This document shows positions 18,997 to 21,193 of a stretch of DNA of 64,000 nucleotides, piece by piece. The stretch is from assembly GCF_003426945.1 (NCBI RefSeq), contig NZ_QURO01000004.1:930001-994000 (forward strand), given 5' to 3'. This stretch comes from Thermus sediminis (lineage in GTDB: Bacteria; Deinococcota; Deinococci; Deinococcales; Thermaceae). Under the pieces are notes generated by a model. The model saw only the letters and a program-made list of their open reading frames with translations, searched no databases and was not told where the DNA came from. How positions within the stretch are numbered: the first letter of the stretch is position 1; the number at the start of each line of letters is the position of its first letter. A program made the position numbers and the translations under genes.

Positions 18997-20019
18997 TTAT
19001 GCGGGAACTTCCGACCGGAAGAGGTCGGCGTAGCGGCGCTTGGCCCGCGCGGGAGCCCGGTGCCAGACGTAGGAGGCCAGGAGGGGGAAGGCCAGGGTGG
19101 CCTCGGCGAAGACCATCTGGGAGAGGGCCGCATCCACCTTGCCCCAGCTCTGGGCCTCGGAGAGGGTGGAGCCGGAAAGCCCCCCGTCCCTTTCGTCGGC
19201 CACGGTGATCTGGATGGCGTACTTGTGCATCTCCACCCGGTGGCCCAGGACCTCGGCGGCCACCACGATGTCCTGGGCGAAGTTCTTGGGCACCCCGCCC
19301 CCCAGCATCACCAGGCCCGTGGTGCCCGCCTTGAGCTTGATCTCGGTGAGCTCGCGGAAGTCGGCCACGGAATCTATGGTGACGTGGGCCTTGGGGTTCT
19401 TGGCCTGGTGGTAGACGAGGCCGAAGCCCGCCGAGGAGTCGGAGAAGGCGGGGACGAAGATGGGCACCCCCTCTTCGTAGGCCGCCCGGACGATGCTCCT
19501 CTCCCCCAGACCCCTTTGGGCCAGGTAGCGGCCCATGTGCCAGAGGAACTCCCGACTGGAGTAGGGGCGGGGCTCCAGGGCATCGGCGATCTCGGCGATG
19601 GTGTAGTCCGTGTGCCGGAGCTCCTCCTCGTCGATGTAGGTGTCGTAGATGCGGTCAATCCAAAGCCGCCTCAAGGCCTCGTCGTCGGCCTTGGGGTCCC
19701 CCTGGTAGTGGCGGTGGCCCAGGGCCTCGAAGAAGTCCTGGTCCACGATGTTGGCCCCCGTGGCCACGATGGCGTCCACCAGGCCCTTCCTTATGAGGTC
19801 GTGGACGATGAGGCCCTGCCCGGCGGAAACCAGGCTCCCCGCCAGGGTGAGGATGACCGCGGCGTCGTCCTCCAGCATCCTGAGGTAGATCTCCGCCGCC
19901 CGGTGGAGGTTTCTGGCCTGGAAGGCGGTCTTGCCCATGGCCTCGAGGATGGGCCCGGCGTCAAAGGCCTTGATGTCTATGGGGACCACGGGCGTAGAGA
20001 GGAGGTCCTTCTTCTGCAT
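18997..20019 (-). CDS. Deoxyhypusine synthase-like protein
   Basis: A 340-aa Rossmann-type protein of the deoxyhypusine synthase family, which in eukaryotes and archaea transfers the aminobutyl group of spermidine to eIF5A using NAD. The active-site Lys is kept: Lys294 in SEAQSWGKVDA, in the same context as the eukaryotic EAVSWGKI. The glycine-rich VMLGGGVPKNFAQD is also present. Bacteria lack eIF5A hypusination, so the substrate here is probably another amine, as in bacterial homospermidine synthase-like homologues, or it contributes to the unusual polyamines of thermophiles (inference). The start at 20019 follows AAAGGAG. It is 11 nt below the MoaD-like gene. Confidence 0.85.
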   Translation of the reverse strand: MQKKDLLSTPVVPIDIKAFDAGPILEAMGKTAFQARNLHRAAEIYLRMLEDDAAVILTLAGSLVSAGQGLIVHDLIRKGLVDAIVATGANIVDQDFFEALGHRHYQGDPKADDEALRRLWIDRIYDTYIDEEELRHTDYTIAEIADALEPRPYSSREFLWHMGRYLAQRGLGERSIVRAAYEEGVPIFVPAFSDSSAGFGLVYHQAKNPKAHVTIDSVADFRELTEIKLKAGTTGLVMLGGGVPKNFAQDIVVAAEVLGHRVEMHKYAIQITVADERDGGLSGSTLSEAQSWGKVDAALSQMVFAEATLAFPLLASYVWHRAPARAKRRYADLFRSEVPA

Positions 20020-20030
20020 CGTTCTCCTTT

Positions 20031-20303
20031 CTACGCGGGGTGGGCGTAGGGCGGCTCCCCCCCTTTGGCGCCCCCTGCCCCATGCGGCAGGACCCTGAGT
20101 ATACCACCCCCGGCGATGGGGGGAAAGACCTCCAGGGGGCCTTCCACCTCCTCGTCCAGGCCCACCATCCGCTCTCCCACCGCCAGAAGCCAGGCCTCCT
20201 CCAAGGGGATGCAAAGCTTCTCCAGGGCCTCCTTGGGGGTCTTGGCCTCCACCTCCAGGCGCTCCCCAAAGCGCCTTAAGTCCCCGTGGAGGATGACCAC
20301 CAT
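20031..20303 (-). CDS. MoaD/ThiS-like ubiquitin-fold protein with C-terminal tail
   Basis: A 90-aa protein. Residues 1-66 fit a MoaD-like beta-grasp protein, ending in LEVFPPIAGG where sulfur carriers normally stop. Here translation continues for about 23 residues (rich in Gly and Pro) before the stop at 20031. Exposing the GG for adenylation and thiocarboxylation would need proteolysis; otherwise this is not a sulfur carrier. It overlaps the end of the 2-hydroxyacid dehydrogenase gene by 1 nt (TGATG) and precedes the deoxyhypusine synthase-like gene by 11 nt. Function unknown; it could be a carrier, a protein modifier or a tail-assembly-like beta-grasp domain. Confidence 0.7.
   Translation of the reverse strand: MVVILHGDLRRFGERLEVEAKTPKEALEKLCIPLEEAWLLAVGERMVGLDEEVEGPLEVFPPIAGGGILRVLPHGAGGAKGGEPPYAHPA
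20098..20106 (-). promoter_or_regulatory. Possible internal promoter (extended -10) before the DHS-like gene
   Basis: TGG-TATACT on the minus strand, within the MoaD-like gene directly after its GG codons. It would give a leader of about 70 nt before ATG 20019. The match is strong but it lies in coding sequence. Confidence 0.4.
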
Positions 20304-21193
20304 CAGTACCCCTCCCGCACCACGTTGAGGAGGGGCTCTCCACGCAAATACCGCTCCGCCTGCTCCCGGAGGAAGCGGGCCGCCCGCCGGGAAAACCCCT
20401 CGGAAAGCCCCGCCACGTGGGGGGTGAGGAGGAGGCCCGGGGCCCGCCAGAGGGGGTGGTCCCCGGGCAGGGGCTCGGGGTCGGTGACGTCCAAGGCGGC
20501 GCGGATCCTGCCCGCTTTCAGGGCCTCCAAGAGGGCCCCGGTGTCCACCAGCCCTCCCCGCCCGGCGTTCACCAGGAGGGCCCCAGGCTTCATGGCCCCG
20601 AGGAAGTCCCGGTCCACGATCCCCCGGGTCTCGGGGGTGAGGGGGAGGAGGAGGACCAAGGCGTCCGCCCGGGGCAGGAGGTGGGGCAGGTCCTCCCGGG
20701 TGTAGACCCCGGGCTTAGGGTGCTTGGCCACGGGGAGGACCTCCACCCCAAAGGGCCTAAGCCTCGCCTCCACCGCCCGCCCGATGGCGCCGTAGCCCAG
20801 GAGGAGAACCGCCTTGCCCTCGAGGTCCAGAAGGCGCCTCGGGGCCCAGCGCCCTTCCCTTTGGGCCTCCCAAAAGCCCGGGAGGTCCTTGAGGAGGGCG
20901 AGGAGGGCCATCACGGTCCACTCGGCCACGGGGGCGTCGTGGATCCCTGAGCCGTCGCAGAGGACCACCCCTTCCGGGATGAGGGGCAGGATCCAGTCCA
21001 CCCCCGCGGAGAGGGTCTGGACCACCCTGACCTCCACCTCCTCCAGGACCCGCCGCACCACCTCTTCCTGGCCAAAGGGGGGGAGGAAGAGGTCCGCCGC
21101 CTGGGGCCAAGGCCCGTCCAGGAAGGCCACCTCTACCCCCTCGGGGAGGAGGGCGAAGACCTCTTCCCTAAGCCTCGGGGCCAAAATCCTCAC
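20303..21193 (-). CDS. D-2-hydroxyacid dehydrogenase family protein
   Basis: A 296-aa NAD(P)-dependent oxidoreductase related to phosphoglycerate dehydrogenase. It has the dinucleotide motif LGYGAIGRAVEARL (about 133-146) and the catalytic triad region: Arg in VNAGRGGLVDT, Glu in DVTDPEPLPGDHPL and His in LLTPHVAGLSE. Shorter than SerA and without an ACT domain, so substrate and direction (2-oxoacid reduction or hydroxyacid oxidation) are unknown. The GTG start at 21193 overlaps the upstream GNAT gene by 26 nt. The neighbouring gdhA-gdhB genes suggest 2-oxoacid or amino-acid metabolism (inference). Confidence 0.85.
   Translation of the reverse strand: MRILAPRLREEVFALLPEGVEVAFLDGPWPQAADLFLPPFGQEEVVRRVLEEVEVRVVQTLSAGVDWILPLIPEGVVLCDGSGIHDAPVAEWTVMALLALLKDLPGFWEAQREGRWAPRRLLDLEGKAVLLLGYGAIGRAVEARLRPFGVEVLPVAKHPKPGVYTREDLPHLLPRADALVLLLPLTPETRGIVDRDFLGAMKPGALLVNAGRGGLVDTGALLEALKAGRIRAALDVTDPEPLPGDHPLWRAPGLLLTPHVAGLSEGFSRRAARFLREQAERYLRGEPLLNVVREGY

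Follow-up and report, generated by a model that had tools for sequence, protein, structure and literature searches.

A MoaD-like gene of Thermus probably ends on the promoter and 5' leader of cdmS

A small open reading frame on the reverse strand of Thermus sediminis DNA (20031-20303 of the window, the whole stretch of 64,000 nucleotides that we analysed) encodes a MoaD-like protein whose C-terminal part reads ...LEVFPPIAGG-GILRVLPHGAGGAKGGEPPYAHPA, and this raises the question of why the frame runs on past a GG at which sulfur carriers would end. The frame picked out by an earlier sequence-only reading is real, with 90 codons, the GG at residues 65-66 and a TAG stop, and the tail that was counted there as 23 residues has 24. 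That reading took the tail for a possible precursor sequence cut by a JAMM-like protease, in a system that would include the deoxyhypusine synthase (DHS)-like gene downstream. We consider it probable, on grounds that are partly observed and partly inferred, that the 3' end of the MoaD-like gene overlaps the promoter and 5' leader of that downstream gene, cdmS, and that the leader controls initiation.

The MoaD-like body and its tail

Nucleotide differences were counted by codon position in 25 sequences, leaving out L012 (frame break), L027 (no MoaD-like gene) and L070 (absent from that alignment). In codons 2-66 the mean pairwise difference at first, second and third positions was 0.126/0.101/0.285, third positions differing two to three times as often as first or second positions, and because third-position variation dominates, the body of the frame (codons 1-66, 20106..20303, reverse strand, ending ...FPPIAGG) is a genuine gene. 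Codons 67-90 gave 0.133/0.063/0.112 with no third-position excess. The tail (24 codons and the stop, 20031..20105, reverse strand) runs in frame through a -10 box and the cdmS leader, and its length varied among the 27 genomes with the frame (26 Thermus and one of a sister genus). Three residues followed the GG in seven genomes, 7 residues in fourteen, 24 residues in three including T. sediminis, 42 residues in one and 47 residues in one, and the remaining genome was frame-broken before the GG. This was L012 (G020, a 65% complete draft), in which the break lies in a C-run and cdmS is broken too. A 1-nt insertion at codons 65-66 was present in 7/25 sequences, and this one base more in the G-run decides between GGWYT and GGGIL. 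Other indels of 1-2 nt, at codons 73-84, sat in the loop of leader helix P1 (described below) and in an A-run. Length, frame and sequence of the tail all vary across Thermus, and the tail is not conserved as a peptide. A precursor with a conserved tail was rejected for the 24-residue tail, the length, frame and codon pattern of which are unconserved. Since the DNA there is kept for cdmS, the odd tail is most likely a by-product of reading into the cdmS promoter and leader; tail length may tune coupling to cdmS even if the peptide does nothing.

The fold of the body was predicted with AF2 from 23 orthologues. The model was of moderate confidence (mean pLDDT 67), with block means of 72-87 over residues 1-60 and values below 50 for residues 64-90. 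Foldseek placed TtuB first among PDB structures (5ztb/5gha, E 5.8e-4, TM (target) 0.75) with MoaD and SAMP1 lower down the list, and hhalign matched the family to the four other ThiS-family proteins of the genome at a probability of 90. Judged by the model and these comparisons, the body is predicted to be a small beta-grasp protein like TtuB and MoaD, and it shares with the TtuB, MoaD and ThiS carriers (PF02597) the ...PPIAGG motif and the profile match to ThiS-family proteins. It differs from these carriers in that PF02597 (ThiS) listed 0/23 family members at E <= 1, in that the protein never ends at GG (26 frame-intact orthologues) and in that no known partner gene stands alongside. The four PF02597 matches in the genome did not include the frame and the NCBIfam MoaD models did not match the family. 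A SAMP1 model matched 1/23 members weakly (E 0.0088), Ub-Mut7C (PF14451) matched 20/23 weakly (best E 6.2e-05), and the N-terminus weakly matched models of phage tail assembly protein I. Unlike the Ub-Mut7C and phage tail protein I domains, the MoaD-like protein is small and stand-alone, with no Mut7-C or phage tail context. The resemblance to the ubiquitin-like domain of the phage protein (PHROG 4244 and 32) lies at 20205-20303 of the window (LHGDLRRFG...TPKEALEKL), and PDB 8iyk matched the family profile at E 0.0014. A Foldseek search of the model against viral structures returned nothing at E <= 0.001.

Possible uses of an internal GG

A check for orthologues without the GG found A64, G65 and G66 invariant in 23/23 aligned orthologues (alignment A2 was made without L006, L009, L012 and L022). 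The frame stopped directly at the GG in 0/27 genomes and the GG was internal in 26/26 frame-intact orthologues. Given this, the protein either has a short tail removed or carries a GG that does not serve as that of TtuB does. A non-canonical beta-grasp protein, in which the GG would be a structural remnant and the full-length protein a binding partner rather than a sulfur carrier or modifier, is possible, and we hold this idea tentatively. It fits the lack of a free GG in all 26 frame-intact orthologues, the Ub-Mut7C matches of 20 of the 23 members and the likeness of the N-terminus to phage tail assembly protein I, but AGG is invariant though the third position of codon 64 varies, suggesting selection on the residues.

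It is unlikely, in our estimate, that the tail, short or long, masks the GG and is removed by a JAMM-like protease so that an E1 can activate the protein, an arrangement with a precedent in QbsE/QbsD, where a tail masking the GG is removed by a protease. The invariant AGG, the absence of any orthologue ending at GG, a predicted fold closest to TtuB and the presence in the genome of one JAMM and one E1-like gene all favour such a precursor; against it, the sequence, length and frame of the tail are unconserved, and the constraint on the DNA explains the tail without processing. The only Prok-JAB match in the genome lies about 41 kb from the frame, no protease gene is linked to the frame, and no conserved tail or cleavage context follows the GG. 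Of the earlier proposal, the sulfur-carrier-like body is supported, and a JAMM and an E1-like gene, which it suggested looking for, are present; the JAMM-precursor reading of the 24-residue tail, whose DNA is that of the cdmS promoter and leader, is not supported, and the JAMM gene is a distant one. As every frame-intact orthologue continues past the GG, a tail as short as WYT or GILxxLP may be processed in all species.

The E1-like gene (ThiF family) lies at about 1441-2249 of L113 (G000:C4:1626564-1627285), apparently in two frames and split in a G-rich stretch, through either an assembly error or a real break. Cleavage of a MoaD-MoaE fusion by the Deinococcus JAMM (DRJAMM) is described in PMC8832034, which counts in favour of a precursor and also gives the Thermus JAMM an obvious other candidate substrate. 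Of the four other ThiS-family proteins in the genome, two end at GG and two are fused to MoaE or DUF1952, and these fusions could be substrates in place of the MoaD-like protein. The MoaD-MoaE fusion (1489-2160 of L072, G000:C4 near 1167360), with ThiS and MoaE domains and the sequence ...PPVSGGQDS..., has the same layout as the Deinococcus fusion. The other (1492-2004 of L073, G000:C4 near 1374024) is a MoaD-related protein in which the GG is followed by the DUF1952 domain.

The conserved leader of cdmS

The neighbours of the frame were found as the sequence-only reading had named them, with a 2-hydroxyacid dehydrogenase gene upstream (20303..21193, reverse strand; PF02826 E 6.5e-50), the stop of which overlaps the MoaD-like start (TGATG), and a DHS-family gene downstream (18997..20019, reverse strand; PF01916 E 3.5e-97). 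The downstream gene is assigned as cdmS, for caldomycin synthase, by model NF002699, which it matched at 542.4 bits against a cut-off of 500. By the same model it is of one kind with T. thermophilus cdmS (TTHA1570), the product of which converts two agmatines to caldomycin en route to homospermidine according to PMC10981699. The words promoter, operon, riboswitch and MoaD do not occur in the main text of that paper. Among 22 other genomes of the family, 21 had nothing closer than a distant homologue of DHS (about 28-32% identical) and the other had no match. The dehydrogenase gene was upstream in 28/28 loci, some with a gap and some ending inside the gene, and roughly 130-690 extra bases separate it from the MoaD-like gene in L002-L006, L011, L014, L023 and L024. 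In L027 (G014) the MoaD-like gene is missing between the dehydrogenase and the cdmS leader (1507-1530).

A -10 element right after the GG codons had been noted earlier and was confirmed. The extended -10 TGGTATACT (20098..20106, read from 20106 to 20098 on the reverse strand) shares its first base with the end of the second GG codon and, like TGNTATACT, has one match in the window against 0.06 expected. Its TATACT was present in 28/28 loci, including L027 with no MoaD-like gene. Neither a -35 of the scanned kind upstream of TGGTATACT nor an intrinsic terminator was found. We propose that TGGTATACT serves as the cdmS promoter, with a predicted start site and use; given where the element lies, transcription should begin at about P1.

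In the loci TATACT is followed by five variable bases, a near-invariant stretch through the Shine-Dalgarno, a variable start-codon region and then cdmS codons 6-11. Helix P1 (CCUGCC/GGCAGG, 20074..20091, reverse strand) lies close to where the cdmS mRNA is expected to begin, and in 24 distinct sequences its loop varied in length and sequence while 6/6 pairs stayed invariant. The P2 helices (GGGCG/CGCCC around a small G-tract/C-tract hairpin, 20042..20073, reverse strand) belong to a predicted fold and are near-invariant. TATACT, the leader and its arm in the coding sequence were found together in 28/28 loci, including L027, where the dehydrogenase gene is followed directly by the -10 and the leader. 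A dedicated system of the MoaD-like and DHS-like genes, as suggested earlier, would be hypothetical, since cdmS keeps its leader even when the MoaD-like gene is missing. A covariance model of the 24 distinct leaders, searched against 111 genomes, found the leader in 27/27 Thermus genomes and in one genome of a sister genus (E <= 2.7e-25), with the strong copy always at cdmS. No second copy rose above background in the T. sediminis genome (next match E 1.25). Elsewhere there were 11 weak matches (E 6e-4 to 0.08). Three further genomes among the 111 had weak matches only (E 0.0018 to 0.08), and no cdmS-like gene was seen beside the two weak matches inspected (L111 and L112). The leader is conserved and tied to cdmS.

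A known riboswitch or other Rfam RNA was rejected, Rfam having returned no relevant match at E <= 10 for the window stretch or at E <= 1 for five loci, and the leader was not described in the titles and abstract openings of the papers retrieved. The fold of the window leader lay 1.06 sd below shuffles. Pairs changed on both sides numbered 0/28 because the near-invariant helices hardly vary, which makes covariation uninformative. With a weak fold score, no two-sided changes and a Shine-Dalgarno occlusion that is not rare in the window, the importance of the leader rests on its conservation and its tie to cdmS and not on fold energy. We propose that it is a cis-regulatory leader of cdmS that is absent from Rfam.

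A predicted hairpin over the cdmS start

The Shine-Dalgarno of cdmS lies in GCGUAGAAAGGAG (20024..20036, reverse strand), the 5' arm of a third predicted helix, P3, which also holds the TAG of the long MoaD-like frame. This arm can pair at 12/13 positions with the 3' arm CUCCUCUCUACGC (19992..20004, reverse strand), which covers cdmS codons 6-9 and the first base of codon 10. In 24 distinct sequences 92.3% of the cells of the 13-position P3 were paired, and in L026 and L070 two coding-arm bases are changed with the pairing kept, one change repairing the single A-C mismatch. Codon use was counted in 27 cdmS sequences, without G020 (same frame break). Codon 8 was TCT in 27/27 genomes, a codon otherwise rare in cdmS, and showed the largest departure from background codon use in the gene (5.1 bits), and codons 6-11 formed the top six-codon window of 334 by a background-corrected measure. 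Windows of plain synonymous entropy did not single out the start region because the whole gene is strongly codon-biased. When cdmS was resampled synonymously the observed complementarity was reached in 142/20,000 draws. Codons 6-9 of cdmS are under constraint at the nucleotide level.

Folding predictions kept the Shine-Dalgarno core largely paired up to about 75 C. In these predictions P3 stays closed from 37 to 70 C and is roughly half open at 85-90 C, so that the predicted melting lies above the usual growth range of Thermus. The duplex between Shine-Dalgarno and coding sequence was near the top among window genes, with two of 44 stronger. The cdmS Shine-Dalgarno had a mean unpaired value of 0.227 at 65 C, and at least 8 of 44 other window genes, with approximate start calls, were lower; the cdmS value was computed separately, as the start finder did not keep the cdmS start in its gene list. 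Occlusion of the Shine-Dalgarno at cdmS is not exceptional within the window. The leader can, folded as modelled, hide the cdmS Shine-Dalgarno in a hairpin with codons 6-10.

In the arrangement we propose, the MoaD-like frame would read on until its first stop, which lies shortly behind TATACT, within the loop of P1 or, in T. sediminis, in the P3 stem, and the transcript started at about P1 would fold into P1, P2 and P3. P3 would pair the Shine-Dalgarno with codons 6-10 and leave the start codon in its loop, and initiation would stay low until P3 opens. One candidate opener is a signal, such as a polyamine, that acts on P1/P2, and another is ribosomes coming from the upstream gene on a read-through transcript. 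In T. sediminis a read-through ribosome would stop 11 bases upstream of the cdmS start codon, at the TAG within the P3 arm, and could open P3; in most relatives the stop would come earlier, in the P1 loop or ahead of it. The parts of this scheme that we infer are promoter use, RNA fold, regulation and trigger. Riboswitches and ROSE-like thermometers are translational leaders that sequester the Shine-Dalgarno, and the cdmS leader resembles them in having the Shine-Dalgarno in a hairpin, a structured upstream part and a position at a biosynthetic gene. It differs from them in having no Rfam match, in placing the anti-Shine-Dalgarno inside the coding sequence and in being a predicted leader with a hypothetical ligand or response.

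A more specific proposal, speculative and of low probability to our minds, is that the leader is a Thermus riboswitch for a polyamine or guanidino precursor (agmatine, caldomycin, homospermidine, or a long or branched polyamine), recognised via the invariant G- and C-tracts of P1/P2. The conserved AGGGGGGAG of P2 can form 9 pairs with the anti-Shine-Dalgarno CUCCUCUCU, and in such a riboswitch this pairing would be the alternative state that frees the Shine-Dalgarno. We likewise doubt that the conserved DNA is the binding site of a protein regulator, or a protein-bound mRNA leader, and not an RNA switch. Near-total invariance with no covariation would be expected of a bound sequence just as of a fold, and a protein-binding site in DNA or RNA would account for much of the conservation, but the constraint extends to cdmS codons 6-9, where it falls on bases that are complementary to the Shine-Dalgarno arm, and the coding-arm changes in L026 and L070 keep the pairing. 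A heat-opened RNA thermometer on cdmS would fit the predicted opening of P3, but besides that high predicted melting it is disfavoured, to the point of being very improbable, by the homospermidine trend stated in PMC10981699 (higher at 60 C, minor at 70 C), which is the opposite of heat activation.

A conserved promoter and RNA leader can masquerade as a protein tail, and conservation of frame and codon position provides a simple test that separates a protein tail from promoter and leader DNA. For Thermus, the leader of cdmS is a candidate control element, not mentioned in the main text of PMC10981699, for the entry step of homospermidine synthesis, at a gene whose enzyme makes an unusual polyamine found in these thermophiles. 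If the leader does sense a polyamine, it would give a thermophilic model organism, with a cdmS knockout already available, a natural RNA that responds to polyamines.
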